Shown here piece after piece: positions 4,617 to 24,372 of a stretch of 34,368 nt of DNA; the stretch's first letter is position 1, and each line of letters starts with the position of its first letter. The DNA is taken from the IMG/VR virus record IMGVR_UViG_3300006869_000039, positions 1-34,368 of that record. One strand, given 5' to 3'. The DNA is from a virus. A program made the position numbers and the translations under genes. The notes under the pieces were generated by a model. That model did no database searches. It saw nothing but the letters and a program-made list of their open reading frames with translations, and was not told the DNA's origin.

Positions 4617-4619
4617 CAT

Positions 4620-5586: not shown

Positions 5587-6509
5587 TGTCATATATAACA
5601 CAATACCAATACTATGAGAATGGGGGCAATAGCCCTGAGGATGCTAATTGGGGTTCATACCAATACATCTCCCTGTATGATATCGTCAACAACTATATGC
5701 TGATGTACTCCGGGAATCATTCCATGGTTAACAACGAGGAGAGATATAAGATTCTGTTCCATGCTAAGCGTGGTATACAGGAGCTAAACTATGATGCGTT
5801 CAAAGAGATAAAGGTTTTACAGCTAGACGTTTCTGATAGCTTGAGATTTGTTCTGCCTCCTGACTATGTGAATTGGGTTAGAGTATCTCTATATAAGGAT
5901 GGGCTGATAAGACCGCTTACTGAAAATATTCAGACTAATTATAGCGATGCTTACCTTCAGGATAATACCTATAGGATTTTATTTGATGAGTCAGGAAATG
6001 TACTTAAACCCGAGAACTCAAACCTAGATATTGATAGAATAAAAGGAACACAGAAGAGTATATACCTAAATGAAGCTAGTCCATTCTATGGATTAGAGGG
6101 ATACTGCTATGATGGCTATTGGTTCTTTGATTATGGTGTAGGAGCTTTCTACGGACTTAACACAGAAACAGCTAACGCTAACCCTACATTTAAGATAGAT
6201 AAACGCTCAGGAGTAATTAACTTTGATTCCTCTATGTCAGGAGAGTCATGTATATTAGAGTATGTATCTGATGGAATGGAGGGTGGAGATGATAGCTTAG
6301 TTCAGGTTAACAAGCTCTTTGAGGAGTATATATATTCATACATCACGTTTGCTGTTCTTAATGCTAAGTATGGTGTACAGGAGTATTTAGTTACAAGAGC
6401 TAGAAAGAAAAAGACTGCAGACCTTAGAAACGCTAAGATACGTATAAGTAATATTCACCCCGGCAGGTTACTAATGAATCTTCGTGGTAGGGATAAATGG
6501 ATGAAGTAG
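5586..6509 (+). CDS. Tail tubular protein A-like / adaptor protein
   Basis: This 307-residue protein has an N-terminal helical segment (ERYKILFHAKRGIQELNYDA near residue 53) followed by a beta motif, RFVLPPDYVNWVRVSLYKDG (about 87-106). This pattern is seen in T7 gp11-like adaptor proteins and their counterparts in Bacteroidota podoviruses. The C-terminal part is helical and ends in Arg/Lys-rich residues. Such proteins form the ring joining portal to tail nozzle. The start codon overlaps the previous stop by one base, and the gene ends in TAG immediately before the next ATG. The assignment is by motif pattern and by the following gp12-like gene. Confidence 0.58.
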   Translation: MSYITQYQYYENGGNSPEDANWGSYQYISLYDIVNNYMLMYSGNHSMVNNEERYKILFHAKRGIQELNYDAFKEIKVLQLDVSDSLRFVLPPDYVNWVRVSLYKDGLIRPLTENIQTNYSDAYLQDNTYRILFDESGNVLKPENSNLDIDRIKGTQKSIYLNEASPFYGLEGYCYDGYWFFDYGVGAFYGLNTETANANPTFKIDKRSGVINFDSSMSGESCILEYVSDGMEGGDDSLVQVNKLFEEYIYSYITFAVLNAKYGVQEYLVTRARKKKTADLRNAKIRISNIHPGRLLMNLRGRDKWMK

Positions 6510-9500
6510 ATGGCTAACACTAAAAGACATTTTATATCGGGCAAGATGAACAAGTCTGTTGACGAGAGACTTCTGCCTAATGGCGAGTACGTTGACGCAT
6601 TGAATGTTCGCTTAGGCTCAACGGAAGCATCAGAGATAGGCTCTGTAGAGAACGCAAAGGGAAACACTCAGCTTACTACATTAGAGTTTAATGGCACTGC
6701 GTTGAGTAATAATGCTAAGTGTATCGGTGTATATGAGGATGGCACTCGTGAGACAATATATTGGTTTGTTCACGACCCCAACTTCTCAGCAGGAGCTATC
6801 AATAAGCTTGACCTTATAGTGTCTTTAAATGTAAAGTATGATATACTAACGTATCATGTTGTAAGTGAGCGTGATGGGACAACATCAAGCACTACATTAA
6901 ACTTCAACCCTACATATTTAATAACAGGTATCGACATGGTAGAGGACCTACTGTTTTTTACTGATGACTACAATGCTCCAAGGGTTATAGATATAACAAG
7001 GAACTATCAAGAGCCATCAGGTGGTGTAGACCAATTCACCGAGGAGGAGATACTTGTAATAAAGAAGCCGCCTGTTGAATCTCCAAGTGTTGTGGTTCAG
7101 CTTCAAGATGGTGAGGAAAATTATCTTGAAGAGAGATTTCTTTGTTTTGGTTACAGGTATAGATATGAGGGCAATCAATATTCTGCCACATCACAATTTT
7201 CAAAACCTGCTTTTATTCCTAGCAGCTTTTTTATTAGCAGTACATCTTTCCTTAATGAAGGAATGGTGAACTCTAAAAATATTGCGACTATATCTTTTAA
7301 TTCAGGGGGACCTTTAGTGAAAGGTATAGACTTATTATTTAAAGAGTCAAACAGTAATATTATAAAGGTTATCAAGAAGTTTGATAAAAGTAATGATGGG
7401 ATAGCTGATAATACTATTGTTAATCAAACCTTTGACTCTAATCAGATATTTACAATACTTCCTGACTCAGAGCTATTAAGGCTATTTGACAATGTCCCTA
7501 GGTTTGCAAAGGCACAGACCGTAATGGGTAATAGATTGATGTATGGTAACTATGTTGATGGATATGATTTGAAAGATAAAAATGGGAACCCTCTTAGAAA
7601 TGAATATCAAACCTCACTAGAGGCAATAGAATCACAAATAGCCGCTTTACCTGTAGAGATTGATACTAATACATTTAATATAGATGGAGCATCTTCAGTA
7701 GTAGTTGATAGTGTTCTTAGAATAGATTTTGAAGACCAAGAATTGAAAGCGGGAAGTGTTATTGATATTACATTCACAATTGAACACGACCAATTTACAA
7801 ACTCAGCAAGTCCGGGAAGTGTACCAACACAAAATTCAGGTCAGAAATTTGTTGCTTTCACCTATGTTTTACCATCTGACTTTGCTACAATTAACGATTT
7901 AGCTACAAGCACCGACTTTATAGATAGTATAGGTTCAGCTTCCACTATTAAACCTGTATATGATGCTGTTAACCCCACATCATGTAGCGGTATAACATTA
8001 ACTGATAAGTTTAATTGCTCTATTCCTGATACCTTAACAGGTTCAGGTACTCCGGCTACTTGGACAAAGTATACATCAGGAAGAACTACTGCTATAAACC
8101 CTCCTGCTACACCTTCAGCAGGAGAACCTATTCTTATAACATCTAGTGGTGGTAGTGATGATTTGGAGTTAACCATACTAGCAATGAGATGGGTAGACAC
8201 CCCTACAGGACCTACGTTAAATGCTTATGAGTATTATAATATAATAAGTGCAAACGTAACATTTAGGTCTTCAGAATCATCATTAAGCCTACATAGTAAT
8301 AGAAACTATGAGGTGGGTATTATATATATGGATGATTTTAATAGGGCTACAACCGCATTGATAAGCTCCCAAAGTAATGGGGTATTTGTCCCTTGTGGTA
8401 ATTCTTCTTTACAGAATAAGATACAGGTTACTATCCCTTCATATCAGCTAGCACCATCTTTTGCTACAAGATATAAGTTTTGTATTAAGCCTGATAGAGA
8501 GGGTTATCAAACAATATATTCTCGGATATATTTTCAAGACCCTATAACAAGCAATACATTTTTTCTTCTTGATGGAGAAAATGCACAGAAGGCAGAGGAA
8601 GGAGCTAGGCTTATTGTCAAAAGGGATTCTACAGGAGCACTCCCTTCTTGTACTTATGCCACTGTTCTTGAGAAAAAAGCACAGGTAGAAGATTTTATAA
8701 CTCCTGATAGCGGTGCGACAGTTCCTGCAGGAGTTTACATGAAGATGTTGGCAAATGATTTTATTGCAATTCTTGACGATGATGATATTATTTCTCCGGG
8801 AACAAAATATGTGGAAGAAAATAATTTTACAGATTTCCCCACATTAGTTTATGATAACTTAGGAGGCTTTACTATTCCTGCGGGGAGTACAATAAAAGCG
8901 GAGATGACATGGACTAGAGAAGGAAGTTCTGTTTTTGATGTCCCCGGAAATGATTGCTCATTGACTGTAGAGTTTATATCTCCTACTGATTATCCTGATA
9001 TTGTTGATTGGTTTGATGGAGCTAATATTGAAGATGCTTTTACTAGTGCTTTTAATTCAATACCATTTAATGATTTTACACAAACTATTTATAGGCAACC
9101 AAACACAAGCTCAACCACTCCAAATTATGGACTGACAAACGCTCTTAATAATGTGCAATATGTGTGGTATAGGAATGCAGGTGATATACGATTTGTTACT
9201 AGAGGCTTGCAGTCATATGGTAACACAAAAAATAGAAGGTCAAAAATTAGTGTTAATTGGGAAATAATTAGAGCAGAAAACACTATTGTTTTTGAAACAG
9301 AACCAAGTGATGCGTTACCTGACGTATGGTATGAATCCTCTGAGTCATATGCGATTGACCAATCAACAGGATACCATGATGGAAACGTACAGCCTCAAAA
9401 TGCGTCTCAACCTGCTATTATAGATACCGACTTTGGGAACTGCTACTCTTTTGGTAATGGTGTTGAGAGCTACAGGATTCGTGACTCAATAAAAGGTAAA

Positions 9501-10907
9501 GCCTTTGACTTGGGAGAAAGATTCTTTAGCACATCGGCTGAAGACTATCAGGAGGCTGATAGGTTTGCAGCTATTACATATAGTGGTGTATTCAATACTG
9601 AGACCAATGTAAACAAGCTCAATGAGTTTAACTTAGGTCTCCTTAACTTTAAAAACCTTGAGGAGTCCTTTGGTGAGATACAGATACTATCAGGTAGAGA
9701 GACTGACATACTTACATTACAGGAGGATAAGATATCATATGTCCTTTCAGGTAAGAACCTACTCTCTGATGCCGCTGCAGGTAGTGCAATCACATCAGTA
9801 CCTGAGGTGCTAGGAACACAGATTGCAAGAGTTGAGGAGTATGGTATCAGTAATAATCCTGAGAGCTTTGTGCAGTATGGCTACGACAATTTCTTTACAG
9901 ACTCAAAGCGTGGTGCTGTCCTTCAGCTAAGAGGTCAGGGGCAGGCTCAGCAGTTGACAGTAATATCTGAGCTAGGTATGCGGTCATGGTTCAGAGACTT
10001 GTTCTTAGGAAAGAATGATACTCAGAAGCTTGGAGCATTCGACCCATATATGAATGAGTATGTGCTATCATCAAATGATACTAAGCTACCTGTAGAGGAG
10101 GTCGTATTAAACTGTGGTGTAAAGAGAAGACTTACAGTATCAGCGGCGACACCTGTAAGCTTTACGGTGAATGTGGGTAATACGGTTGGTGTTTGTGATA
10201 TTGACTATGACATCATATCATTCTCAGACCCCGGCTCAATCACAATCGCTGAGGACTACACAGGAACATCTGTAAATACAGGCACTACAGGTGCAGGGAC
10301 GTTGGCATTTGCTAAGGACTCGGTATCAGATGACAATGTGGTAATTACATTGACACCTGCATCATCACCTCCGGGAGGAAAGCAGGTTGTTGTTCTCGAT
10401 ATAACGGTAGGGTGTCCTCAAGCACAGGAGATAACGCTGATAGAGGTTTGTGTATCAAAGGATAATCAAGCAGCAAAGACAATACATAATGAGTACCAAT
10501 GGACTGATGGCTCATTTACATCGGCATTAAAAAGCAAGCAGGTTATATTCCCTTCAGGAGATAGGAACTTACTTACTCCTGAGATTGCTGACTATACAAC
10601 TATAGTAGCCCCACAAGGTGGAAGTATTATCCCTAACGATGGAGATACGCTAACTATTAGAAGTATTAAAAAGAAAGGTGATACCTACGACTTTGATTTT
10701 ACAGCACCAACTCCTAATAGATTGATGTTCTGTAGAAGTAATACTCTATATCCGGGGACAGCTGCAGGATATAATTCACTTATTGCAGACCCTAATCTAC
10801 AGGTATTAACAGTATCATCTCCTTCTTTGGGAACTGTTCAGGGAGATGTTACGATACCATCTTCTACAGACCAATATATGTATATTATTTACGATTACTT
10901 TAGTTAA
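6510..10907 (+). CDS. Large tail hub / stabilisation protein (T7 gp12-like N-terminus)
   Basis: This 1465-residue protein starts HFISGKMNKSVDERLLPNGE and continues YVDALNVRLG. This matches the N-terminal pattern of tail tubular protein B/stabilisation proteins of podoviruses (F-x-G-x-MN-x-D-x2-R-x-LP-x-GEY-x-DA-x-N). The body is beta-rich, consistent with a propeller-like nozzle. Near residues 1195-1310 there is an immunoglobulin-like stretch rich in Thr/Val/Gly/Ser, followed by a C-terminal region coded by TACCAATGG and similar codons that may bind fibres. It is longer than T7 gp12 (about 800 residues), so extra domains are present. Codon choice is uneven: about 7.07-9.33 kb mixes GAA and GAG for Glu, while about 9.55-10.5 kb uses almost only GAG. 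The start directly follows the previous TAG. Confidence 0.6.
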   Translation: MANTKRHFISGKMNKSVDERLLPNGEYVDALNVRLGSTEASEIGSVENAKGNTQLTTLEFNGTALSNNAKCIGVYEDGTRETIYWFVHDPNFSAGAINKLDLIVSLNVKYDILTYHVVSERDGTTSSTTLNFNPTYLITGIDMVEDLLFFTDDYNAPRVIDITRNYQEPSGGVDQFTEEEILVIKKPPVESPSVVVQLQDGEENYLEERFLCFGYRYRYEGNQYSATSQFSKPAFIPSSFFISSTSFLNEGMVNSKNIATISFNSGGPLVKGIDLLFKESNSNIIKVIKKFDKSNDGIADNTIVNQTFDSNQIFTILPDSELLRLFDNVPRFAKAQTVMGNRLMYGNYVDGYDLKDKNGNPLRNEYQTSLEAIESQIAALPVEIDTNTFNIDGASSVVVDSVLRIDFEDQELKAGSVIDITFTIEHDQFTNSASPGSVPTQNSGQKFVAFTYVLPSDFATINDLATSTDFIDSIGSASTIKPVYDAVNPTSCSGITLTDKFNCSIPDTLTGSGTPATWTKYTSGRTTAINPPATPSAGEPILITSSGGSDDLELTILAMRWVDTPTGPTLNAYEYYNIISANVTFRSSESSLSLHSNRNYEVGIIYMDDFNRATTALISSQSNGVFVPCGNSSLQNKIQVTIPSYQLAPSFATRYKFCIKPDREGYQTIYSRIYFQDPITSNTFFLLDGENAQKAEEGARLIVKRDSTGALPSCTYATVLEKKAQVEDFITPDSGATVPAGVYMKMLANDFIAILDDDDIISPGTKYVEENNFTDFPTLVYDNLGGFTIPAGSTIKAEMTWTREGSSVFDVPGNDCSLTVEFISPTDYPDIVDWFDGANIEDAFTSAFNSIPFNDFTQTIYRQPNTSSTTPNYGLTNALNNVQYVWYRNAGDIRFVTRGLQSYGNTKNRRSKISVNWEIIRAENTIVFETEPSDALPDVWYESSESYAIDQSTGYHDGNVQPQNASQPAIIDTDFGNCYSFGNGVESYRIRDSIKGKAFDLGERFFSTSAEDYQEADRFAAITYSGVFNTETNVNKLNEFNLGLLNFKNLEESFGEIQILSGRETDILTLQEDKISYVLSGKNLLSDAAAGSAITSVPEVLGTQIARVEEYGISNNPESFVQYGYDNFFTDSKRGAVLQLRGQGQAQQLTVISELGMRSWFRDLFLGKNDTQKLGAFDPYMNEYVLSSNDTKLPVEEVVLNCGVKRRLTVSAATPVSFTVNVGNTVGVCDIDYDIISFSDPGSITIAEDYTGTSVNTGTTGAGTLAFAKDSVSDDNVVITLTPASSPPGGKQVVVLDITVGCPQAQEITLIEVCVSKDNQAAKTIHNEYQWTDGSFTSALKSKQVIFPSGDRNLLTPEIADYTTIVAPQGGSIIPNDGDTLTIRSIKKKGDTYDFDFTAPTPNRLMFCRSNTLYPGTAAGYNSLIADPNLQVLTVSSPSLGTVQGDVTIPSSTDQYMYIIYDYFS

Positions 10908-10910
10908 GAT

Positions 10911-11723
10911 ATGGCAGCACTAACAGGAGAATACACACTAACATATAGCGAATCATCACAAGGGTTCCCTTCATTCTATTCATACATACCTGAGATGATG
11001 ATAGGAATGAATAACTATCTATATACATTTAAGGGTGGTAACATATGGAGGCATAATACCAATGACACAAGGAACAACTTCTATGGTGTGCAGTACAGCT
11101 CTCAGATAACAAGTATATTCAATGAGGAGCCTCTTGAGAACAAGCTGTTTAAGACCATTAACCTTGAGTCTGATAAGGCATGGAGTGGAACATTTACCTC
11201 TGACGTTCAGACCACAGGGACTATTGATGCCTCGTGGTTTGAGAAAAAGGAGGGGGCGTGGTTTGCTTTTATGAGAAACTCAGGCACTACACCCGCAGCG
11301 AGTGAGGAGTATGTGCTACGTTCATTGAATGGTATCGCAGTAAGTAACAGTGTTAACTCTGCAGCTCCTGCTGCAGTGGAGATAAACTTCCCACTTACAA
11401 CATCTATAGGCAGCATACTAAGTATCGGTGACACCTTATACTTTATTGCATCTCCTGTAGCACCTAGCTCAACACCAACGATATGTGGTACAGTGACAGC
11501 AGTAAATATTGATTTGCCAAATAATGTTAATCAGATTGTCGTGGATACTACGGCAGGAAATATTCCTCCGGGAGCTGCTGATTATTTTATGTTTGTAAAG
11601 AATCAGATTGCTGAGTCACATGGTATATTAGGTCACTACTGTGAGTTCGTTCTCACAAACGATAGCACTGAAGCTACTGAGTTATTTGCAGTAGAGAGTG
11701 AGGTGATGAAATCTTTCCCTTAA
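10911..11723 (+). CDS. Tail-associated protein (stabilisation-protein-like fragment)
   Basis: This 270-residue protein begins three bases after the tail hub stop. Residues about 20-65 (FPSFYSYIPEMMIGMNNYLY, then TFKGGNIWRHNTNDTRNNFY) form a pattern I associate with the C-terminal region of tail stabilisation proteins in Bacteroidota phages, there as part of a longer chain. Here it stands as a separate gene. The remainder is beta-rich with Thr/Ala/Pro-rich loops. A role in the tail hub or fibre attachment is inferred from sequence pattern and adjacency. No enzymatic motif is visible. Confidence 0.5.
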   Translation: MAALTGEYTLTYSESSQGFPSFYSYIPEMMIGMNNYLYTFKGGNIWRHNTNDTRNNFYGVQYSSQITSIFNEEPLENKLFKTINLESDKAWSGTFTSDVQTTGTIDASWFEKKEGAWFAFMRNSGTTPAASEEYVLRSLNGIAVSNSVNSAAPAAVEINFPLTTSIGSILSIGDTLYFIASPVAPSSTPTICGTVTAVNIDLPNNVNQIVVDTTAGNIPPGAADYFMFVKNQIAESHGILGHYCEFVLTNDSTEATELFAVESEVMKSFP

Positions 11724-11729
11724 ATTTAC

Positions 11730-11737
11730 TATCTTTG
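11730..11737 (+). promoter_or_regulatory. Probable -7 promoter element for internal-protein genes
   Basis: TATCTTTG fits TAnnTTTG, lies just after the stop at 11721-11723, and is 23 bases upstream of the ATG at 11760. It is identical to the element at 4620-4627. No TTTG is found at the -33 position. Confidence 0.45.
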
Positions 11738-11759
11738 TGTGTAATCAAAGAATATACAC

Positions 11760-12527
11760 ATGGGACTAACATTAGCAGCAATTGGCTTAGGGGTACAGGC
11801 TCTATCAGGAGTCGGCTCATTTATCCAAGCAGGTCAGAGACAGAAAGAAATTGATAAAGCAAATGCAGCGGCACAGAAGGCTGTTGCTGAAGCAAAGAAA
11901 CAGATTCAACTAAAACCTTATGAGGCACTAACAGTTAGCGACACACCATATGAACGTCAGCGTGAGATGTTTGCATCTCAGGCGGCACAGGCAACACAGG
12001 CGGCAGCCGAGATGGGAGCCGCAGGTATGGGTCGTGTAGGTGCTATTGCTATGGCAGGAGACGAGGCACAGGCTAAGGTTCGAGACCAACAGATACAGCA
12101 GCTTGAAGCGATTGAGCAGTTGAAGGCTCAGGATGAGGCACGAGCATCACAGCAGTTGGCAAGTCTTTCATTACAAGAAGCTGAGGGGGCACAGAAGGCA
12201 GCGGCTGACGCACAGTCGGCTAAGGCTGCAGCTATCACCTCAGGTTTTGGTGCATTGACAAGCATCGGTCAGCAGATGGCATCAGTAAATCCTAAAACGG
12301 GAGAAGCTATGTTTGAGCTATATGGAAAGGATAAGTCAGGAGCAGCGGGTAGTCAAGGAGGAACTAAATCAGCGACTGCGGGAGGAACATCTATAGGAGG
12401 TTTTGACCCTCAACTTGCTTTTTCAGCTCTTCAAGGTGGAACAACCCCTGAAGGTCTTAGTACAAATCAAATGAATGCTTTATTAGAATATGCACAGTTA
12501 GGAGGCATGACTCAAAGAAACTATTAA
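11760..12527 (+). CDS. Internal virion protein-like (Ala/Gln-rich coiled coil)
   Basis: This 255-residue protein has a short apolar, glycine-containing N-terminus (MGLTLAAIGLGVQALSGVGS), a long Ala/Gln/Lys/Glu helical body (about 25-165), and a low-complexity Gly/Ser/Thr tail. The layout is like T7 gp14-type internal core proteins, which are ejected first and insert in the outer membrane. It precedes two further genes of internal-protein type (608 and 3334 residues), so the three may form the ejectosome of this phage. The assignment rests on layout and position. Its own promoter-like TATCTTTG suggests a separate expression unit. Confidence 0.5.
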   Translation: MGLTLAAIGLGVQALSGVGSFIQAGQRQKEIDKANAAAQKAVAEAKKQIQLKPYEALTVSDTPYERQREMFASQAAQATQAAAEMGAAGMGRVGAIAMAGDEAQAKVRDQQIQQLEAIEQLKAQDEARASQQLASLSLQEAEGAQKAAADAQSAKAAAITSGFGALTSIGQQMASVNPKTGEAMFELYGKDKSGAAGSQGGTKSATAGGTSIGGFDPQLAFSALQGGTTPEGLSTNQMNALLEYAQLGGMTQRNY

Positions 12528-12530
12528 CAC

Positions 12531-14357
12531 ATGGCTACATACTATAAATACGCAGAGCGAAGTGCAGAGGACTATGTCGATTGGGGAGCGATAGGTAAGA
12601 CAATGTCAGATACTCTGCTCAAGGAGCAGCAGAATCGTGACAAGATGAAGGCTGATATCGATAAAGCCTCTAATGAATTTGGAGAGGTATTGTCAAACGC
12701 ACCTCAAGGAGACCATAGAGGGTTAAATGAATATTCTCAAGAGTTTGCAAGTAATGCTCAGCAGTATCAGCTTATGCAGCTAAGGAATCTTAAGGCGGGA
12801 AAGCTTTCATTAAAGGACTATCTAATAGGTAGAGAGAATCTAAAGCAGGGAGCTAATGATGCCTTTGATATAATTAAGAAGTACAATGACAAGTATAGTG
12901 AGTATCAGCAAAGATTAAATGATGGAGTATCATCAGGATATGAAACATTCCTGCTTGGAGAGGTTGAGGGATTTGGTAATTTAACTAACACATCTTTATA
13001 TATCAATCCTACTGACGGAAAGGTTAGTGCGGGCAAGAGAGTATTAAGGGACCCAAGTAAACCTTACGACCCTAATACCAATCCATATACATCTAAGATG
13101 AGCGATAACCCTAATGACTTTAGGTCATTGGTAGACTTAAATTTTGCTCTGAGTGCTCAGATTGATAAGTACGACTCACAGGGAGCTATAGCGAACATCG
13201 CTAATAGCTTTGCTAAAGACTATCAGGTTATTACTGAGAAGGGAGCTAGAGGAGCATACACAAAAGTTTCAGATATTACACAGCTAGGAGAGGATGGTGT
13301 AAAATTTAAAGAAGCATTAGAACAAAAGATTCGAGCTGACTTTAGAACAAATCCAATACATACGATAAGTGCACTTAAAGATTATATAACTCAAATTCCT
13401 GTAGATGAGAATGGTAACTTTGATAAGGAGGGAACATTGACTACAATAGATTTTACTAGGAATCCTGAGGAAGCAAATGCTCATACCATACTATTAAAAC
13501 CAAATCCTTCACAGCCTGAAGGTGGTACAGATGTTATGGATGAAGATGCTGAAGGAGCACAGGAGCTTTTAGATTATATGATGGAGCAGGTAGGAAATTC
13601 AGTTATGGCATCATTAAACAAAAAGATTGAGATTTCTGCAGGCAGAGCTCCTCAGCAATTATCACAAGCGAGCAGGGCTGCTTCATCTAAAAGAAAGAGT
13701 GATAGGAATAGCTTAAATCTTTTAGCAGACCTATATTACGGTACAGACGAGGAGATAGATACCGCTCTTGAGAACTTGAGAGGATTAGGTACAACTCATG
13801 GTCCTATTAAAGACATACAAAGAACTCCAACAGGGGTGACTGTTATAACTGAGGGAGGAACAATTCCTTTTAGTTTTAAAGCAGGTGCCGGTGGAGTAGA
13901 TGCTCCCCTTAAAACAGTTACAGAATTTATTGAAGGAATATCTACAGAGTTTGGTATAAACTTTAGTGATGCTGTTAAAGGAGCTAACATTAAAAAAGGA
14001 AAATCCTTTAATAACTCGACAGAAACTTTTGATGCACCGATAGCTGTAGCAGTAAGTCCTAAAGATATGGTTAGAAAAGGGTTGGATGACCTTCTAAGTC
14101 AGATGCTTGATGAAGGAAAAGGAAGCGATAAAAACCTAGCTAGAGAGGTAGGTTTACAGCTTAAAGCATCAGGGGGTAAATATTCAATTCTTCAAGATGG
14201 AGTTGAGCTGCAGTCAGGTATACCTGCAAACACCACTGCTGTCATGCAGGCATTGAAGGGTGTGATACTTAATGATGAGATGTTAATAGAGAACGCTATT
14301 CCTGCACTTCAAAAGCAAGGAATAACAATAGGTGAAGGAGCAAATCAAGCCCCATAA
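12531..14357 (+). CDS. Putative internal virion / ejected protein, 608 residues
   Basis: The sequence opens MATYYKYAERSAEDYVDWGA and is mainly helical for the first 170 residues, with Gln/Lys/Asp-rich segments. The C-terminal half mixes beta and helical stretches; I see no catalytic motif or membrane segment. It starts three bases after the 255-residue internal-protein gene and ends ten bases before the giant gene, so the three are probably translated from one mRNA. T7-like phages carry two or three such proteins (gp14, gp15, gp16 equivalents) in this order, and this one occupies the middle place. Function beyond that is unknown. Confidence 0.45.
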   Translation: MATYYKYAERSAEDYVDWGAIGKTMSDTLLKEQQNRDKMKADIDKASNEFGEVLSNAPQGDHRGLNEYSQEFASNAQQYQLMQLRNLKAGKLSLKDYLIGRENLKQGANDAFDIIKKYNDKYSEYQQRLNDGVSSGYETFLLGEVEGFGNLTNTSLYINPTDGKVSAGKRVLRDPSKPYDPNTNPYTSKMSDNPNDFRSLVDLNFALSAQIDKYDSQGAIANIANSFAKDYQVITEKGARGAYTKVSDITQLGEDGVKFKEALEQKIRADFRTNPIHTISALKDYITQIPVDENGNFDKEGTLTTIDFTRNPEEANAHTILLKPNPSQPEGGTDVMDEDAEGAQELLDYMMEQVGNSVMASLNKKIEISAGRAPQQLSQASRAASSKRKSDRNSLNLLADLYYGTDEEIDTALENLRGLGTTHGPIKDIQRTPTGVTVITEGGTIPFSFKAGAGGVDAPLKTVTEFIEGISTEFGINFSDAVKGANIKKGKSFNNSTETFDAPIAVAVSPKDMVRKGLDDLLSQMLDEGKGSDKNLAREVGLQLKASGGKYSILQDGVELQSGIPANTTAVMQALKGVILNDEMLIENAIPALQKQGITIGEGANQAP

Positions 14358-14367: not shown

Positions 14368-14574
14368 ATGGACGAAAAATATATTCAAGACTTGTGGGAA
14401 TGGACAACAAATCAAGACCCCACTTTTACACAAAGGTATACGTTTGACTCTTGGAAAAATAAACTTGAATCTAATTCACAGTATAGAGAAGATTTTCATA
14501 ATTGGGTTTCTTCTGTTGATTCTACTTTTCCTGAAAGAAGACCTTTTAATGATTGGAGCAATCTTGTATCTTCA
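14368..14574 (+). repeat. Tandem 34-residue protein repeat at the giant protein's N-terminus
   Basis: Residues 1-34 and 35-69 share W12/W46, D17/D51, T19/T53, F20/F54, R23/R57, F26/F60 and W29/W63, all exactly 34 residues apart. The DNA copies are diverged, so this is an old protein-level duplication, not a recent DNA repeat. It may be a packaging or docking module. Confidence 0.75.
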
Positions 14575-17500
14575 CAATCAGCAGATATCCCAACGCAAGT
14601 TGATGAACAACCTTTAAAAAAAAAAGACGTTACGGAATCTGTATCGGCAGATGGTTTATCGGAGCAGCAAAAGACTACTGACTTTCTTGACTACTCTCAG
14701 ATGGTCAGCTCACCTATCATGCAGGATGCTGCCACTAGACCATTGGTTGCAGAGGAGGATGTACCAACAACTACAGAGGAGCTAACTCAGACCCTGTCAA
14801 CAGCTCAGAGACAGGGAGGACAGAGATATGTTGAGATTGATGGAGAGTATATAGACCTACTTCACCCTGACGGAGATAAGAGAAGGAAGAACATAGATAG
14901 ATACCAAGAGTACCTATCAAGCCCTATGAAAAAAGGTATACCAACCATATCTGTAGGAGAATCTAAGGGATATGTATTACCATCAATTACTGCTCCAATA
15001 CCTTCCAAAACAAAAGAACAAAAACAGAAGGATGAAGCCGAAGGCAAGCGTGTATCTAAAGTAAAAAGGTTTACTGAGAATGAAAAAGTAGAATATGATT
15101 CTTACAATCCCCTTGTAAACGCATCATCAACACCACTTAAAGCTAGTCAGCAGAAAGGATACCTTCCGGGCAATGTAGAGTCTATACCAAGGGCAGCAGA
15201 TATTGTTAGTGGTAGAATGAAACCTGTGGTTCCTTTTGATATGGAGGCTTATAACAGAGATAAGGAGTTATATGCTATGATGTATGATGCTGAGGTTGAG
15301 ACATACAAGGACTACCTAAAAGATAAAGCAGATTATGTGAGAGCGGCAGATGGTAGGTACTATAACCCTGAAAACTTTAATGCAGGAGAAATATTTAATA
15401 ACAAAATAAATAAGCTTGTAAACCAAGAATTGATAGAAAAGGAAGAGGAGGCTGTGTCTATGATGCTTAGCGATGAGCTCTCTCCCTTTGGTTTTAAGGT
15501 AGACAAGACAGGAACATTTACCGACAGGATAATTGTTACTGCACCAAACGGTCAGCGTCAGGAGTTTAGTTTAAATAACTTCTTTGATGATACAGACTTC
15601 AATGAGTCGGTAAGGTTGAAGGCTTTCTTAAAGAGACAGTATGCTAAGGAGCTTACGGGGGGTAATATACCAAGAGATATATATGGTAAGGAGCTTAGTC
15701 TTCTTGATATTGATGTATCTCCTCAACAAAATGCCGACATAATTAATAAGCTTACATCCTCTGAACGTAGAGCTTTAGACCTAGATAGAGAGCGAGTAGT
15801 TGCGGGGCAGAGTCAGCTTATATACGAGAGCGACAAAGAGATTAATAATTTAAACGCTCAGCTTGAGGATACCAATAAAAAGATTGCAGAGGCAGAGAAG
15901 CTTCCTGAAAGCTATAAGGAGTGGAGAGGTAATGTCGAGGTCACTGTTAAGAATCAAGAGAGAGCAGACAGACTTCAGTTCTTAAATAAAAAGAAGAGTG
16001 CATTAGAGAAGGAGATAGATGATGCTAGCTTTGAGAACAGAAGACTTAAGAAAGATAAGCCAATTAATCCTGTATACAAGGAGTTTTTTTCAGATAATCT
16101 TGACGCACAGATTCAAACAGACACAGAGGTATTAAATGAAGAAAATAGAAGGCATATATATCTTGTAGATTTATTTAAAGAAAAGGAGGATGCCTTCCTT
16201 GAAGCAGAGAAGCAGGCATTAGCATTAGCTGAGCAGTCGTTTGATAAAAAGACTCAGACATGGAAAAGTGAAGAGGCAGAAAGGGATTATAATAAATTAA
16301 CAAATGTTTTAGAAAACGAAAAAATATTGTTAAACAAGTATGGAGAGAAGCTTCTGAATGAGGATATTAGACTGAAAATAAAAGACGAGCAGTTAACAAG
16401 AGATGTAGGTAGAAAGGCTGCTATTCAAGCAGAGATTGGAGAGCTTGGGGACTCTATAGTTTCTGCTATAGTTAGTGGAGCAGGGGCTGTCATAGAGGGA
16501 GGTACTGAGGAGTTTGCAGGAAATATTATTAGGAACATAAATAATATGTTCTATGATGAGACTGATGAGGAGTATATCACTGATGAAGAAATGAACGACC
16601 TTAAGAAACAATCCTCTATAAAAAAAGATTGGGTTGATTCTTACGGTAGTTGGGCAGACCTTACCCCTGAAGCTATGCAGGCTTTTAGGGAGTCTCTAGG
16701 TGTTGCGTCTATAGGATTCTATGGAGCACTAGAGTCATCACCCGCCATGCTATTATCTCTGATACCGGGAGGGAGAGCATTAGCTCCTCTTGGTTTCTCT
16801 TTCTTGAGTGCTCAGAACTTGAGAGAGCAGATGGATAACAACCCTGACTTTGACTATATGTCAGAGAATGATAAGCTAAAGTTTATAGCTCCTATGGCTT
16901 TTACAATTGGTCTTCTTGAGAACTATGGTGTTAGAAACGTAATGAGGAACTCATCTTTCCTAGGCAAGACAGCTGCAAAGCTAGCGGGAAAAGGACCGAC
17001 ATCAAAGACACTTAATGAAATATCTGACGACTTAGGTAAAAACTATTTCCAAAGAGAGGTTCGCAAATATGTAACGACAGGTCTTGGTGAGTTGGAGACA
17101 GAAGCAATGCAGGAGGCTTTAGATATATATGGCAAGGAGTATATGGACCTAAAGATGAAGAATAATTTTTGGGACCAAGATGTAAGATTCTTTAAGGATG
17201 AGAAGGGAGATGTTAACTACTTCTCAAAAGCAGCGTTGTCTCAGATTATTGAGTCAGGTATGGCAGGATTCTTTGGAGGTCTTACAATGAAAGCTCCAAG
17301 CACTATCGCAAATGCTGTAAAGGGAAACAAGGTTGAGGAGATAGATGACTTCACCTTTATGTTTTATGAAGCGGGTATGGAAAGTCCTACTATAGCAAAT
17401 GCTCAAAGAGCTCAGATAAACAACGACATTGCTAGTGGTAAGATAACAAAGGAGCAAGGGGACGATATGTGGAATACATATACACGTACCGTTGGTCAGA

Positions 17501-20500
17501 TGAGAGAGGTAAAGAAAGTTGCAGGTCAGTATGATACCAATACTAAGAAGAAGCTTCTGTCTCTTCTTATGGAGAAGAAGCAGCTAGAGGAGAAGATTGA
17601 TGGTGTCGATAAATCATTGACAAGAGAGGAGCAGAGAAAGATAAAGGTAGCTGAGGAGAGGATTCAAGAGACGCTAGCTAGTGGTGAGACTAAGCTTACT
17701 GAGGACAAGGCAGCATATGAGCAGGCTAAGAAGGATGGATATAAAGGAACATTCGAGCAGCATAGAAATGGTGTAAAGATAAAGGAGGTAGCAGAGCAGG
17801 CAGTAGAGCAGGAGGTTAAGAAGAAGAAGCCTGTAAAGAAAGCTCCTATCAAAGAAGAAAAACCTGTTGAAGCTCCTGCTGTTGAGGAGACTACAGAGGA
17901 GGCTCCTGTCACTGAGGAGGAGCGTGCTAAGATGCGTGAGGTATTGGGTGAGCCTGCGGCAAAAGAGCAGGCAGTTGAGGCTCCAAGCTTATTAAATAAA
18001 GAACAAAGAGAAAAATATCTTAAATTAAGTAAAGAAGAAAGAGATGCGTTAGATGAAATAATAAATGATGAAGAGCTTGAAAGAAGTATAGGTGCAAAAG
18101 AGCAGCCTGAATCAGAGCAGATAGAAATAGAAGATGAAATGTTTCCTGTTAGTTCTACTATTTCTTTTGAAGATATGATAAACCAATCTTTAGGGATAAA
18201 ACCAAAAAAACAAAAGGCAGATGGTGAATTGTTCATTTTCGGAAGAGATGTGTATGATATTGATGCTGCTACAAAATTAGCTGAACAGGATAATGTTAAT
18301 GTTGTTGATATTCCGGTGGGGACTCTTCCTAAAATGAGACAACCATTAGTAACTAAAACAGAAAGGGGTATTGAAAACGCAGACTTATCTAAGCCTGTTA
18401 TAATTGCAACAACTAATAAAGGTTTACTTTTGATAGACGGTCACCACAGACTTGAGAAAGCTATAAGAGATGGTAAGCCGGTTAAAGCTCAAATACTTTC
18501 AGAAAATCAAACTAAAAATATAAAGACACAGGAACAGGTAGTTGAGAAAGCTCCTGTTAAGGAAGCTCCTAAAAGAAAGAGAAGAAGGAAGAAGCCTGTA
18601 GTTCAAGAAGCACCTGTTAAGAAGGCTCCTAAGAAAACCACTAAGAAGAAAGCACCCGTCAAGGAAGAACCTCAGGTATCTGAAGAGGTACAGAAAGAGA
18701 TTGATAGAGCTGAAAGGTTAAGGGATAGGATTGTGGCTGAGAAAGCCAATAAGTTATCTAAAGCAAAAGGATTTGAGCAGAAGGAGGAGATAAGAGATGA
18801 GATACGACAGGCTGAGAAGAAGTATAACAACATCATCACTGAGCTTAAGGAAGGTAAGCGTACTAGATTTAGATTGAGTGACGATGCGAAGGTAGAGACT
18901 GAGGAAGGGTTTATTACTGAAGATGCTATCGTTGAAGTAATGAAAGGTCTCGGCTCTGCAGAAGCGAACTTCAAGATTCCTGTAGGAGAAAAGCAGATAG
19001 AGGTTGACCCAATAGCATTAAGCAAATCCCTAAAGAAAATCACAGACGCACAAGCCAAGAAGCTAGGCTTCAAGTCTGTAGCTGATATGTTAAAGAACAT
19101 CGAGGAGTTTAATGGTATACCTATGGTCGTAGCTATGTCAGATGTATTGGCGGCAGGTACAGTGAAAGACTCAATGGGTAATGACATGGAAGTTGGTGGA
19201 GGCTTACTATATAATGTACTCGGACCAAACAAAACATTGGCATGGGCAGGGGTGAATAAGGATGGTGCTAATACTCAGTTTGAAGAAGCGAAAGCAATGT
19301 ATCGTGCCAACAAAGAACTATTTGATAGGTTATGGAAGGAAGGTAAGCTACCAAAGAACCATGTACCTATGGTAGTTGTAAGAATGGATAATGCGGCTAT
19401 AAATTCTAATGAAGCCATGTTTAGATTTATGGCTCCCAAGTTAAAGTCTTTTCCTAAGAAAGTTCAGAAGATAGCTTTTGATACTTTTTTAAATCAACTA
19501 GAATCAAAGAAAAAAACCAAATCAGTTGAGCCTGCACTAATAGAAGCCTTTATAAAGAAAAATAAGATAAAAGATTTAGGAACTCTATTTGATTTGATTG
19601 TTGAAGACGCAAAGAAAAGAGCTAAAGGGAATGAGGATACTTTCCCACTGACCACGAAGAGTTATGTTCTTGATATGATTGCTTCCCCTGTAGGTGTAAA
19701 AAAAGCATCTAAGCCTGTAGCAAAAGCAATAATGAATGCTACAGATTATAACGGAGAGATATTTTTAATAGACCATATCCTTTCTAAAATCGGTGAGACA
19801 TCAATGGTAGAGGGAGAGCGAGGCGATGCGGTAGCTATCATGGGTGTCGATGTCAGTAAGAATGGTGGTGTAACAAAAGCTAAACACAATAACTATGGCT
19901 TCGGTCCTAAGGGTAGATTGATTGCGTTGATTAAAAACCCTACAAATGTTTTACAAATATTTCCTGAGTGGAGAACTAAAGCATTTAAGATGTTTGAAGT
20001 GAAACCAAGTACAGGGAAAATGAAAACAGATGCTCAAGTCTTAGCTGATGTATATGGTCAGGTCTTTGGTGATAAAGCTTTTAGGGGTTCTCGACTCACT
20101 AAAGAGATGTCAGATATAGATATGGTATCTGCACAAATGAGGTTCGCATTCCCTTCCGTAAGCGTGTCACAATCTCAGCAGGAGTTTGATGAGGTGCTCA
20201 AGCAGGAAGGAATCAGAACTGCAGAAGCCAACGGGAATACTATCCTTGGTCTCACGAAAGATGGAAAGATATTTTTAAATCCATCTAGGAAATCTTTATC
20301 TACACCGATTCACGAGTTCGGTCACATATGGATTGATTACCTACGCTCAGAAGAGTCAGGCTCTAAAGGTAGTAAGCTACTAGATAGAGGACTTGAATTG
20401 GTTGAAGGAACAAAAGCCTTAGAGAGTGCTATCAAAAAGTATGGAGACAATGCATTAGCTCGTGAGGAGGCGTTGGTTGAGCTCATGGGAACGAAGGGTG

Positions 20501-23500
20501 AAACGATAGCGAATGCAGCTAAACGTGCTAAGTTTGTTGAGTGGTTCAATGCCTTCTTTAAATACATCAAGGAGAAGCTCACTAGGTTTGCCGACATCAA
20601 AGCTAAGGACATCAAAGACATAACCCTTGAGGACTTTGTTGACATTGGTCTTGCCGAACTATTCTCAGGGGAGGCAGTCGATGCCAAGTTCAAACCTGAG
20701 GAGGCGGCTGAGTCTGTAAAGGCTAGGATGCAGAAGGCTAATATAAAACCATCTATGTCTGCTCAGAATATTATAAAGAAAGCTAGGGCTGCTGAAGAAC
20801 CAATTCGTGATGCGGTAATCATTGATTATCTGATGAGCGAAAAGAAGCTAACCCGTAAGCAGGCTATCAGTGCACTTAAGAGAGCCAACAGAGGTGACCT
20901 GAAGGATGCAGTAAAAAGATTATTTAATAATGTTGAGGACATAACTGACATCAAAGAGAAGGATGCACAGCTTATTAAAGATATACTGAAGTTTGATAGG
21001 TCTATAACTAGAGCTGACAAGATAGCACAGAAGAAAATTAAGGATGAAATCAAGATTAGACTTAAAGCTATACAAAGAAAATCCAAAGGCAAGCTATCTC
21101 AGGCACAGCTTCTTGCAGTAACAAATAGATTCGCTAATGTAAACCTATCAAGCGAGAAGTCTATTGATTCATTCGTTGACTATATGCAGAAGGTGTTCTC
21201 AGATGTTGATTATGCAGCAAAGATGACAAGCCTAAACAAAAGCATCACTGATGCAAAGACAAACATCAATAGCAAGATTGGTAGAGGGGCAGATGGGTTG
21301 GCTTATGAGTTAAGGAGATTGTTAAACATAAGCCCTACTATTATTCCTGACTCTGTCCTTGAGGAATACTCTGACCTCGTCACATCATTCGGGGAAAGAA
21401 AGACGGTTCTTAAATTGAAAGATTCTGTTGAGGTAAAGGAAACGATAGCAAAAATATTTACTGAGCTAGAGAATCAAAACTCAAAGTTAGGTGAGCTTAC
21501 AGAAAGGTTTGAGGCTTTTGATGATAAAAAGTTTACCAAGACAGGAACGGTTAGTTTCTCTGAGACAGTTGCTCAGATGGTAAAAGATAAAGTCATAACA
21601 GAAGGCGAGGCTAAGCTGATGAGGAAGTTCAAGTCAGATATTATGCCTATAGAGAAAGCTGAGGGCAAGACTGAGGAAGATAAGCAGAAGGAGATGGAGG
21701 AAGAGAAAAAGAATCTAATAGAGAATATCAAAAAATCTCCTGTCGATGTTCAAAGAATAGAGCTAGCAATTGAGAAAGCTTTAGTGAAAGATTTTGCAAG
21801 ACTCATAAAGACTGATGCCGTCAATGACTTGAACAACGCACAGCTTAAGAATATTGAGAAGGCTATTGATAATATAAACAATGGGTATGTCACTCATTAT
21901 GTTCTGTTAGCATCAGAGAACTTAGAATCAATCAACAGGTCTAAGATGGGAGCCGAAGGTATAAGAGATGCTAAGCCTCTTGCTGTTAGTACACAGATAG
22001 CAAAAATTAAAACACTATATAGAAGTGGTTCAGATGCTAATAAATTCTATAAGCTCATAGAAAGAAATCCTCTTGTAAATATAGATATGGTTCTTGGAGA
22101 CTTCTCAAGCAAGAGAGTATTTAATTCTGTGCTTGAAGAGTCTGCAGAAGCCGTTGCGACTTTTAACACTGAGCTAAATAAGGTGTATAAAAGAATCGAT
22201 GAAGCAGAGATAATGCTTCAAAAGAAGTTTGAATACAATGGCAATAAAATATTGGAGTCTAAATACAAGCAGATGGCTTACATGGTTCAGCAGGAGTTTG
22301 AATCTAATCCAAACAATCCTCAGGTAAATCCTGCGGCTGCTGTTATCAAAGAGACTATCAAAAAACTTAGAGACAGCAACCAAAACTATGAGGCAAAGAT
22401 ACTTGAGAAAATATTAAAAGATTATTCTACAGATGGTGAGATAGATTTAAAGAAGCTAGATGATAGCTTTGTTTATGCTGAGCTAAATATGATAAAGGTT
22501 GTTCAAGATATAAATTCAAAGCTTACAGATAAGGCTACATATACAGCCTCAGTTATTAGAGGTGAATCAATAGAGCCTCTAAATGACTACATACATCAGT
22601 CTGTTTTAAATACAGATGGTGTGGCAGTGGATGATTCTCGTGCTCTTAGTGAAAGCTATATGGAGAATATCAAACCATCAACAAAAGCTAAGAACCTTAT
22701 TGAAAGAACTAAAGGTGCTAAAGCTATAAACTTTGATATCACTGCATCTGTAAGGCGAGGAGCAAAGATGACATTAATGGACTACCATTTAACCTCTGCA
22801 TTCAGGACAGCAAACAGAACGCTAAACAAGATGGAAGAACAGCTTGAGGATGAAGGACAACAGAGGCAAATATTCTTAGCTGTAAGAGATGCATACAATC
22901 AGGCTATATCTGATGTACTTGAGAATACATTTACAAGCAGTAGTATTAGTGAGCAGATATTTCAGTATGCAGCTAAGCAGGGATACAGGTCTATGCTTGC
23001 AAGTATACCAAGAGTTTTTGGAGAGTTACTTTCTAACTATGCATTTGCATTAACCAATCCTGTTGAATTTACTGAAGGAAGTAAACCTAAAAATATGAAG
23101 GTTGCTTTTAGTGAGAGAGGGATTGAGGTAATGAATAACGTAAGGAGTAAGGAGACTGCAAGGGTATATGGTGAGGGATTATCCGGTAGGTTTGTAGAGA
23201 CATCTATGATAGAAAAGAAGATGGGATTAGCCGCTGACGCAGCAAAGAATCCTGTAGTGAATAGATTGAACCAAGGTCTTTCATATCTTAAAAAATATCC
23301 TAGGGGCGTTGAGTTTATAGCTGACTTTATGATTACTACCCCTGATAAGCTAGTTACAAGACCAATGTGGTTTGGTTCATTTGCAACTGAGTTTAAAAAG
23401 ATTACAGGGCAGGAGGTTAACTTCGATAAGATTGCAGAGAATGATGCTGAATACATGGAGAAATTTGAGAAAGCTATCAATCAAGCAAAGAAAAAGGCTG

Positions 23501-24372
23501 ACGCAAATTCAGTTTTAATTGGAGCAACAGATAATCCATTACAGGGTATATTAAAGAATAAGAAGAGAGCTTCTGATAAAGCTTCTATAATTAAAACGAT
23601 TAACAGTTTTATGCAGAGATTCTTATTGTTTGAATACAATGCATTTAGAAAGGGAATGTATGCATCTATAGGTAGAGGGGACATATCTCCGGGTAAAGGT
23701 CTTTTACTTATGCTTGCCGTATCAGCAAGGATGACAATGTATACAGTAATGATACCTATATTAAACTCACTTATGTTTGGCGATGACGAAGAGGAAGAAG
23801 AGGAAAGCACATATACAAGAGTTTACCGAGCACTATTGTCTACTGCAACAAATATAATGATAGGAAGAGACTTTGGTGCTATAGTAAAAATGATTCAAAA
23901 TATGTTTATAGAAAAGGCAAACAAAGACTTTGGTGAGGACTTTGGTATTAGAGAAGGGGAGTACGACCCGTTCAAGAATCAAGTTCAATATAATATTATA
24001 CCACCTGAAAAACCTTGGAAAGAAACGAGCTTCATTCAAGACGTTGTTCCTAATCTTATTGGACCATACTCCCCCCTAGTAAAGTCAATAACATTTGGTA
24101 TTGATAAGTATTTCTTTGCTAAGCCAAAGGAAGAAGATGAGGCTAAGGAAAGACAACGAAGGGAAAAATATCAAAGAATACCTCTTGAGATTGGAGGTCT
24201 GACAGGATTGGTTCCTTTCTATAGAGACCTTAGAAAATATCTGAATGAAGATATATACAAGGGTCTTAGAGCTAAAGATAGTAAGGGAGAAAGCGAATCT
24301 AAAGCTGAACAAGAAAAGAAAAAGAAAGCTTTTGCTCTTCGTAAAAAGAAACGTAAAAGAAGAAATAAATAG
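14368..24372 (+). CDS. Giant polyvalent virion protein with ParB-like and zinc-metalloprotease domains
   Basis: This is a 3334-residue protein. Start: ATG 14368, after the previous stop, rather than GTG 14332, which overlaps it. In order: two 34-residue W/F/D repeats (1-69); coiled coils (about 500-690); hydrophobic glycine-rich segments near 692-730, 778-815 and 952-980; a Lys/Glu coil and Lys/Pro/Ala linkers; a ParB/sulfiredoxin-like domain (about 1308-1380, motif IDGHHRLEKA with DGHHR at 1357-1361); a Lys-rich linker (1392-1440); a mixed domain of polyvalent-protein type (about 1530-1960); a zincin HExxH site, HEFGH at 1982-1986, with a downstream Glu-rich helix (REEALVELMG) that may supply the third ligand; long helical regions; an apolar segment near 3110-3139 followed by an acidic run; and a Lys/Arg tail. 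Polyvalent proteins of phages and conjugative elements join such domains and enter the host with the DNA. Here I infer an ejected protein that acts on host factors and membrane. Catalysis is untested. Confidence 0.65.
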   Translation: MDEKYIQDLWEWTTNQDPTFTQRYTFDSWKNKLESNSQYREDFHNWVSSVDSTFPERRPFNDWSNLVSSQSADIPTQVDEQPLKKKDVTESVSADGLSEQQKTTDFLDYSQMVSSPIMQDAATRPLVAEEDVPTTTEELTQTLSTAQRQGGQRYVEIDGEYIDLLHPDGDKRRKNIDRYQEYLSSPMKKGIPTISVGESKGYVLPSITAPIPSKTKEQKQKDEAEGKRVSKVKRFTENEKVEYDSYNPLVNASSTPLKASQQKGYLPGNVESIPRAADIVSGRMKPVVPFDMEAYNRDKELYAMMYDAEVETYKDYLKDKADYVRAADGRYYNPENFNAGEIFNNKINKLVNQELIEKEEEAVSMMLSDELSPFGFKVDKTGTFTDRIIVTAPNGQRQEFSLNNFFDDTDFNESVRLKAFLKRQYAKELTGGNIPRDIYGKELSLLDIDVSPQQNADIINKLTSSERRALDLDRERVVAGQSQLIYESDKEINNLNAQLEDTNKKIAEAEKLPESYKEWRGNVEVTVKNQERADRLQFLNKKKSALEKEIDDASFENRRLKKDKPINPVYKEFFSDNLDAQIQTDTEVLNEENRRHIYLVDLFKEKEDAFLEAEKQALALAEQSFDKKTQTWKSEEAERDYNKLTNVLENEKILLNKYGEKLLNEDIRLKIKDEQLTRDVGRKAAIQAEIGELGDSIVSAIVSGAGAVIEGGTEEFAGNIIRNINNMFYDETDEEYITDEEMNDLKKQSSIKKDWVDSYGSWADLTPEAMQAFRESLGVASIGFYGALESSPAMLLSLIPGGRALAPLGFSFLSAQNLREQMDNNPDFDYMSENDKLKFIAPMAFTIGLLENYGVRNVMRNSSFLGKTAAKLAGKGPTSKTLNEISDDLGKNYFQREVRKYVTTGLGELETEAMQEALDIYGKEYMDLKMKNNFWDQDVRFFKDEKGDVNYFSKAALSQIIESGMAGFFGGLTMKAPSTIANAVKGNKVEEIDDFTFMFYEAGMESPTIANAQRAQINNDIASGKITKEQGDDMWNTYTRTVGQMREVKKVAGQYDTNTKKKLLSLLMEKKQLEEKIDGVDKSLTREEQRKIKVAEERIQETLASGETKLTEDKAAYEQAKKDGYKGTFEQHRNGVKIKEVAEQAVEQEVKKKKPVKKAPIKEEKPVEAPAVEETTEEAPVTEEERAKMREVLGEPAAKEQAVEAPSLLNKEQREKYLKLSKEERDALDEIINDEELERSIGAKEQPESEQIEIEDEMFPVSSTISFEDMINQSLGIKPKKQKADGELFIFGRDVYDIDAATKLAEQDNVNVVDIPVGTLPKMRQPLVTKTERGIENADLSKPVIIATTNKGLLLIDGHHRLEKAIRDGKPVKAQILSENQTKNIKTQEQVVEKAPVKEAPKRKRRRKKPVVQEAPVKKAPKKTTKKKAPVKEEPQVSEEVQKEIDRAERLRDRIVAEKANKLSKAKGFEQKEEIRDEIRQAEKKYNNIITELKEGKRTRFRLSDDAKVETEEGFITEDAIVEVMKGLGSAEANFKIPVGEKQIEVDPIALSKSLKKITDAQAKKLGFKSVADMLKNIEEFNGIPMVVAMSDVLAAGTVKDSMGNDMEVGGGLLYNVLGPNKTLAWAGVNKDGANTQFEEAKAMYRANKELFDRLWKEGKLPKNHVPMVVVRMDNAAINSNEAMFRFMAPKLKSFPKKVQKIAFDTFLNQLESKKKTKSVEPALIEAFIKKNKIKDLGTLFDLIVEDAKKRAKGNEDTFPLTTKSYVLDMIASPVGVKKASKPVAKAIMNATDYNGEIFLIDHILSKIGETSMVEGERGDAVAIMGVDVSKNGGVTKAKHNNYGFGPKGRLIALIKNPTNVLQIFPEWRTKAFKMFEVKPSTGKMKTDAQVLADVYGQVFGDKAFRGSRLTKEMSDIDMVSAQMRFAFPSVSVSQSQQEFDEVLKQEGIRTAEANGNTILGLTKDGKIFLNPSRKSLSTPIHEFGHIWIDYLRSEESGSKGSKLLDRGLELVEGTKALESAIKKYGDNALAREEALVELMGTKGETIANAAKRAKFVEWFNAFFKYIKEKLTRFADIKAKDIKDITLEDFVDIGLAELFSGEAVDAKFKPEEAAESVKARMQKANIKPSMSAQNIIKKARAAEEPIRDAVIIDYLMSEKKLTRKQAISALKRANRGDLKDAVKRLFNNVEDITDIKEKDAQLIKDILKFDRSITRADKIAQKKIKDEIKIRLKAIQRKSKGKLSQAQLLAVTNRFANVNLSSEKSIDSFVDYMQKVFSDVDYAAKMTSLNKSITDAKTNINSKIGRGADGLAYELRRLLNISPTIIPDSVLEEYSDLVTSFGERKTVLKLKDSVEVKETIAKIFTELENQNSKLGELTERFEAFDDKKFTKTGTVSFSETVAQMVKDKVITEGEAKLMRKFKSDIMPIEKAEGKTEEDKQKEMEEEKKNLIENIKKSPVDVQRIELAIEKALVKDFARLIKTDAVNDLNNAQLKNIEKAIDNINNGYVTHYVLLASENLESINRSKMGAEGIRDAKPLAVSTQIAKIKTLYRSGSDANKFYKLIERNPLVNIDMVLGDFSSKRVFNSVLEESAEAVATFNTELNKVYKRIDEAEIMLQKKFEYNGNKILESKYKQMAYMVQQEFESNPNNPQVNPAAAVIKETIKKLRDSNQNYEAKILEKILKDYSTDGEIDLKKLDDSFVYAELNMIKVVQDINSKLTDKATYTASVIRGESIEPLNDYIHQSVLNTDGVAVDDSRALSESYMENIKPSTKAKNLIERTKGAKAINFDITASVRRGAKMTLMDYHLTSAFRTANRTLNKMEEQLEDEGQQRQIFLAVRDAYNQAISDVLENTFTSSSISEQIFQYAAKQGYRSMLASIPRVFGELLSNYAFALTNPVEFTEGSKPKNMKVAFSERGIEVMNNVRSKETARVYGEGLSGRFVETSMIEKKMGLAADAAKNPVVNRLNQGLSYLKKYPRGVEFIADFMITTPDKLVTRPMWFGSFATEFKKITGQEVNFDKIAENDAEYMEKFEKAINQAKKKADANSVLIGATDNPLQGILKNKKRASDKASIIKTINSFMQRFLLFEYNAFRKGMYASIGRGDISPGKGLLLMLAVSARMTMYTVMIPILNSLMFGDDEEEEEESTYTRVYRALLSTATNIMIGRDFGAIVKMIQNMFIEKANKDFGEDFGIREGEYDPFKNQVQYNIIPPEKPWKETSFIQDVVPNLIGPYSPLVKSITFGIDKYFFAKPKEEDEAKERQRREKYQRIPLEIGGLTGLVPFYRDLRKYLNEDIYKGLRAKDSKGESESKAEQEKKKKAFALRKKKRKRRNK

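Follow-up and report, generated by a model that had tools for sequence, protein, structure and literature searches.

The window analysed here, a stretch of 34,368 bases, is a whole IMG/VR virus record that carries no completeness estimate. On its plus strand, the region 1-14357 encodes a portal protein (phrog_6547), a scaffold-like protein and a capsid-type structural protein (phrog_13704), followed by further virion structural proteins, one of them 1465 aa long, and by proteins of 270, 255 and 608 aa. A giant gene closes this virion block, 3′ of the portal, major capsid and tail-type structural genes, while past about 24.5 kb the genes lie on the minus strand and include a helicase, a primase-related protein, an exonuclease and a Sak-like annealing protein (replication/recombination). 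The best named relatives of the capsid protein are from the uncultured podovirus ctfjg026 (67% identity), Maribacter phage Panino (53%) and the Flavobacterium elemo phages (49%), and relatives of the 1465-aa protein also include Cellulophaga and Tenacibaculum phages. These named relatives make a Bacteroidota host likely, in agreement with the occurrence of matches to the giant's N-terminal leader in Bacteroidetes and Flavobacteriales metagenome-assembled contigs, and the window phage, a marine one, is probably a podovirus of this phylum. The 270-aa protein (10911-11723) has a match to the C-terminal portion of phrog_14478, to which the adjoining upstream 1465-aa structural protein belongs, and likely arose by duplication. 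The features considered below are as follows.

11760-12527, plus strand: 255-aa protein, smallest of the trio; placed like T7 gp14 but not claimed as its homologue
12531-14357, plus strand: 608-aa protein, middle-sized of the trio; placed like T7 gp15 / N4 gp51
14368-24372, plus strand: giant polyvalent ejection-type protein of 3334 aa, single stop-free ATG frame
14368-14667, plus strand: N-terminal leader, residues 1-100; mini-domain, LKKKD (KKK at 84-86) and Ser/Gly tract
16435-17577, plus strand: N2 block, residues 690-1070; mildly apolar segments, common to about 22 relatives
17830-17967, plus strand: first low-complexity Lys/Pro/Ala/Glu linker, preceding the ParB-like domain
18220-18522, plus strand: ParB/sulfiredoxin-like domain, about residues 1285-1385; DGHHR at 18436-18450, accessory cargo
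18529-18687, plus strand: second low-complexity Lys/Pro/Ala/Glu linker
18955-20154, plus strand: conserved 400-aa domain, residues 1530-1929; no fold assignment, directly N-terminal of the zincin
20155-20733, plus strand: zincin metallopeptidase, residues 1930-2122; H1982, E1983 and H1986 (20311-20325), E2034 (20467-20469)
20785-24369, plus strand: predominantly alpha-helical C-terminal region, residues 2140-3334, the family chassis; apolar segment 3111-3129 and basic tail

The frame translates without a stop into 3334 residues, as an earlier note on this DNA had read it, and an alternative in-frame GTG start lies at 14332, 12 codons upstream of the ATG. Both motifs on which that note relied, DGHHR (residues 1357-1361) and HEFGH (1982-1986), were recovered at exactly the positions it gave. 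Neither is attributable to chance, as the expectation from the protein's own composition is 1e-5 for each; that for HExxH is 0.006, and there the matter is settled by conservation. The same note counted four apolar segments, which is only roughly right: mildly apolar stretches occur at residues 690-708, 781-813, 837-855 and 956-974 (Kyte-Doolittle 1.0-1.4), making the N2 block a possible membrane-active part, but only the strongest segment, 3111-3129, reaches 1.63. The basic tail it described is present, the final 60 residues holding 21 K/R versus 8 D/E. A whole-chain Pfam scan of the giant gave low-complexity or sub-threshold matches only, and no PHROG or Pfam polymerase match that would indicate an RNA polymerase was found in the chain.

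Searches with the whole chain, the C-terminal part and the zincin (for the last, 80 of 177 matches were kept) identified relatives in viral contigs at 28-91% identity, most of them single ORFs of 2,100-3,700 aa. In the window, the giant is the last and largest of a trio of 255, 608 and 3334 aa, and this arrangement is kept in 69 of the 72 relatives with enough upstream sequence, where a gene of 130-360 aa is followed by one of 350-800 aa and this directly by the giant. The small gene product, including most homologues of the 255-aa protein, generally has an apolar N-terminal segment, and the genes downstream of the giant are mostly on the opposite strand. The order is that of T7 gp14-gp15-gp16 and N4 gp52-gp51-gp50, whose products are established to reside in the head and to be ejected along with the genome (see also PMC12633501, PMC10172136). 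As the matches obtained for the three window proteins (PHROG and Pfam in the case of T7) include no T7 or N4 family, a shared layout rather than homology is claimed, and it is in this sense that the giant occupies the place of the large ejected core protein of T7-like phages, as had been proposed. T7 gp16 itself is a 1318-aa protein with a lytic domain, not a zincin. Giants of cultured phages point the same way: elemoA gp21, which has the C-terminal module in common with the window protein (E 2e-93), and Gundel_1 gp074, which has the zincin in common (E 2e-46), are both listed as structural proteins, although this is a database annotation, and a Foldseek search against viral models matched the Gundel_1 protein and an elemoC structural protein.

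The zincin is the most firmly characterised part of the chain. Across 75 aligned zincin domains, H1982, E1983, H1986 and the third ligand E2034 were 100% conserved, and G1961, N1971, T1979 and W1988 were also invariant. Residues 1901-2100 were 81-90% identical at the protein level to two relatives (L001 and L002), with 86-90% for the central 200 residues of the zincin, whereas the fourfold-degenerate sites were only 42-62% identical; the C-terminal region showed about 50% protein identity to the same relatives at similar synonymous divergence. As the fourfold-degenerate sites are strongly diverged, the high identity of the zincin reflects purifying selection, and recent transfer as its cause was rejected on the same ground. 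Directly adjoining the zincin, with no gap in most relatives that have it, is the 400-residue domain 1530-1929, in which D1592, W1626, Y1645, W1656, R1751, H1840, N1842 and Y1843 are invariant and which may represent a pro-domain or a second enzyme. Where the earlier note suspected further enzymes in the long regions between its named domains, this conserved domain is the one addition, and no other known enzyme was found in the window member.

AlphaFold modelled the pair formed by this domain and the zincin with pLDDT above 90 for most residues, and the zincin model contains strands, the HExxH helix and a Glu helix. A VIA-align comparison matched it to the catalytic domain of anthrax lethal factor, a solved zincin (Z 6.0, 139 residues, rmsd 4.4), a score in the middling range that says nothing on function; most VIA-align rows lie over a coiled coil, at model residues 163-224, and give no information on the remainder. 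A Foldseek pdb search with the zincin-block model returned nothing significant, and sequence searches of the PDB with profiles of the zincin, the block and the C-terminal region gave no match. Among characterised phage proteins, the HExxH segment of the N4 virion RNA polymerase (vRNAP; residue 2228) aligns to the window zincin with E 0.0008-0.002 for a single comparison, and the HELGH segment of P1 DdrB is marginal (E 0.012). Taken together, the invariant ligands and the confident model make a gluzincin-type metallopeptidase well supported, as the earlier note had read from HEFGH, and proteolytic activity is predicted. The HExxH motif is missing in several giants of the family (L023, L024 and L026), and the protease is therefore not needed for ejection.

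Comparison among close relatives indicates how the chain is assembled. For example, L003 is 83% identical to the window protein over residues 1388-3303 but differs N-terminal of that and has no ParB-like domain; after the zincin it has an additional stretch of about 340 residues that includes an HEVQH motif, and an apparent drop to 31% identity at residues 2001-2100 was discarded as an alignment artefact of this insert (91% in the other comparison). L014, which shares its contig with L088, has 71-97% identity in each 100-residue stretch of 2100-3300 and 81% in the linker, but its protease block differs, with 36% identity in the zincin and a 1530-1929 region that does not align. Judged from these alignments, the block of the 1530-1929 domain and zincin is swapped cleanly inside an otherwise closely similar backbone. 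The cargo of relatives is likewise diverse and includes GNAT, ParB_N, DUF3293, LPD23 and SprT-like domains. Separately, the syntenic giant of Maribacter phage Panino (L010:18229-23718) has a tRNA-methyltransferase-like domain.

The ParB-like domain of the window protein is one such exchangeable cargo, since it is absent from the giant's closest relatives, which nevertheless have the flanking Lys/Pro/Ala/Glu linkers in common with it, since L058 carries a different DGNHR region at the same place, and since ParB_N occurs elsewhere (a match in 1 of 14 other giants). Residues 1289-1384 match phrog_17560 (E 1.3e-9) and, at E 2e-4, a 'ParB' protein of 110 aa from Erwinia jumbo phages. A single-protein search of viral contigs with the region found none, whereas an alignment-based search gave seven further viral homologues, mostly small proteins, and P, D, G, H and R residues are invariant in 8 relatives. 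The joint profile of these homologues reached the serine kinase SbnI (E 8e-5), aligned through DG.HR, and sulfiredoxin at E 0.6, while hhalign to the ParB region of DdrB, as a single target sequence, gave a probability of 0.6%. Membership of the ParB/sulfiredoxin-type family, which the earlier note had read from DGHHR, is thus supported by the profile match, but the fold is unconfirmed because AlphaFold gave this part a pLDDT of about 40, with too few relatives in the alignment.

For the ParB-like domains of phages, the usual proposal is an NTP-regulated nuclease (PMC5512222), and the earlier note had suggested a nuclease or ATPase. However, the nearest solved relatives by profile are the SbnI serine kinases, and an archaeal ADP-dependent serine kinase had been annotated as ParB (PMC5120207), so that a kinase is as good a guess as a nuclease or ATPase. 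A phosphotransferase, such as a kinase of free serine, in place of a nuclease/ATPase is plausible for this domain, though less likely than not, given the usual proposal for such domains, the unconfirmed fold and the weak identity.

C-terminal of the protease block lies the chassis, which was modelled helical almost throughout residues 2140-3334 (mean pLDDT 65.6), and these 1,200 residues are predicted to be all-helical; neither Foldseek pdb with the model nor a PDB profile search gave a match to a solved structure. The order is reminiscent of the N4 vRNAP (gp50; Schitoviridae), which is likewise about 3,500 aa long, ejected and the third of an ejection trio, and in which an HExxH domain is followed by a 110 kDa, mostly helical domain with no known relatives (PMC12633501), as an HExxH domain precedes a large, mostly helical C-terminal domain in the window giant. 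In contrast to the N4 protein, no RNA polymerase was found in the window giant, the zincin similarity is limited to a strand and the HExxH helix (E 0.0008, one comparison), and C-terminal homology is not detectable by sequence; homology of the chassis to N4 C2 was sought in this way and not found, and hmmsearch with the window block profiles gave no match to the vRNAP. The helical C-terminal prediction would also suit a purely structural core or conduit protein in which the named domains are vestigial or serve as scaffolding, and the N4 vRNAP region that holds the HExxH domain is needed for encapsidation, with no known processing (PMC5512222). This reading is unlikely, as HExxH...E is 100% conserved in 75 proteins and the kinds of cargo domain vary from phage to phage, which is not expected of a scaffold.

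At its other end, the giant begins with a leader that is a divergent member of a family found on otherwise unrelated giants (hhalign 92.9%, E 3.8e-7). Leaders span ~70-100 residues with 1-2 units of ~30 residues (e.g. LYDxLxxxGYYTKSFEEF), and usually end in [GP][LV]KKK[DE], typically [LV]KKK[DE], followed by Ser-rich sequence. KKK occurs in the first 200 residues of 66 of the 76 giants with an intact start (median position 68), compared with 12% of random 200-residue stretches from the same proteins. A leader-only search with no size condition gave 97 viral loci, of which 80 were kept (L117-L196); the leader lies within 25 residues of the ORF start in 80/80 of these, and all 43 complete ORFs with a leader are at least 1000 aa long, most lacking the window's other blocks, although leader-bearing sequences are related and these counts are not independent. 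For example, phi38:1 gp101, annotated as structural, has two copies of ELDEFGIP[VL]KK at its N terminus, and the first 65 residues of the 5,553-aa gp55 of Bacteroides phage BKO1-TP3 (L116:5630-19824), annotated as a DarB-like antirestriction protein, resemble the leader (E 7e-3, no KKK). In P1, the DarB packing signal lies within the first 30 residues (PMC9024508). We tentatively propose, at somewhat less than even confidence, that the portable leader is a head-targeting tag of Bacteroidota phages for unrelated giants, up to the 5,553-aa DarB-like protein, with enzyme blocks mixed behind it; it could instead serve folding or assembly rather than packing. If it is a targeting tag, the leader would play in Bacteroidota phages the part that capsid targeting sequences play in T4 and P1.

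With at least two distinct conflict-type enzyme domains in one chain near virion genes, the giant belongs, by its domain content, to the class of phage polyvalent proteins that Iyer et al. described in 2017 (PMC5512222), and the earlier note's assignment is borne out by the zincin and ParB-type domains, the position of this late gene beside virion genes and the virion structural annotation of homologues in isolates. Known polyvalent proteins such as P1 DdrB likewise combine a multi-domain chain, a zincin and a ParB/Srx-type domain with late genes beside virion genes. However, the similarity to DdrB is marginal for the zincin (E 0.012) and not detectable for the ParB-like domain, and the window giant is far larger, has a constant helical chassis and leader, and belongs to a Bacteroidota-type podovirus. 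Closer to the window giant in genomic place are Gundel_1 gp074, elemoA gp21, the ctfjg026 giant and phi38:1 gp101 (1691-3859 aa). Each shares part of its architecture (the zincin in Gundel_1, the C-terminal module in elemoA, the protease block and leader in ctfjg026, and the leader grammar in phi38:1) but lacks at least one window block. The giant is placed in a new Bacteroidota-phage family of presumably ejected polyvalent proteins, of a kind already known (PMC5512222; N4 vRNAP). In the open-licence papers searched, no description was found of the family, the pairing of the 1530-1929 domain with the zincin, the clean exchange or the leader.

On balance, we consider it probable that the giant is the largest of three ejection proteins of a probable Bacteroidota podovirus, a polyvalent protein whose zincin frees its N-terminal enzymes. 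Its architecture would comprise the leader, an N-terminal part with apolar segments, exchangeable cargo, the 400-aa domain with the zincin, and the helical chassis. The leader would carry the giant into the prohead, and the packed protein would very likely enter the host along with the DNA. On infection, it would leave the particle before the DNA, at least partly unfolded and together with the 255- and 608-aa proteins; unfolded extrusion through the tail has been proposed for N4 and crassviruses. The apolar parts of the two smaller proteins and the helical chassis may help to form a conduit. Once refolded inside the host, the zincin would most likely cut between cargo and chassis, and the freed enzymes may act on nucleotides, DNA or host factors.

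Metallopeptidases of polyvalent proteins have been proposed to cut either their own chain or a host target (PMC5512222), and the zincin may be an effector that cuts a host protein (e.g. a defence or envelope protein), with the giant delivered in the same way. This is a substantial possibility, if short of an even one: the protease block is far more constrained than its surroundings and is exchanged as a unit, although its position between variable cargo and constant chassis suits self-processing. Because of this position, self-processing is favoured over a host target, at about an even chance, but the existence of family members that lack HExxH and the packaging of the N4 vRNAP in unprocessed form (PMC5512222) count against cleavage. 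Gene splits after the zincin in L019 and L069 were not used as evidence of self-cleavage, as they are possible frameshifts.

The family adds a widespread aquatic group to the few giant ejected proteins known. Its constant parts are the leader, protease block and helical chassis, and its exchanged part is the cargo; with these distinguished, two questions become testable, namely the substrates of zincins in ejected phage proteins and how Bacteroidota phages choose the giants that they pack.

Some relatives depart from the single-chain form. In two distant ones, L005 (10001-20775) and L062 (4582-13674), the giant is split into two genes that flank a third, ferritin-like one of 164 aa, and both first halves end in Cys while the second halves have a Cys at residue 3-4: are the two halves disulfide-linked? 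The ctfjg026 giant (L009:741-12320, 3859 aa) carries two HEFGH motifs, at residues 1615 and 2500.
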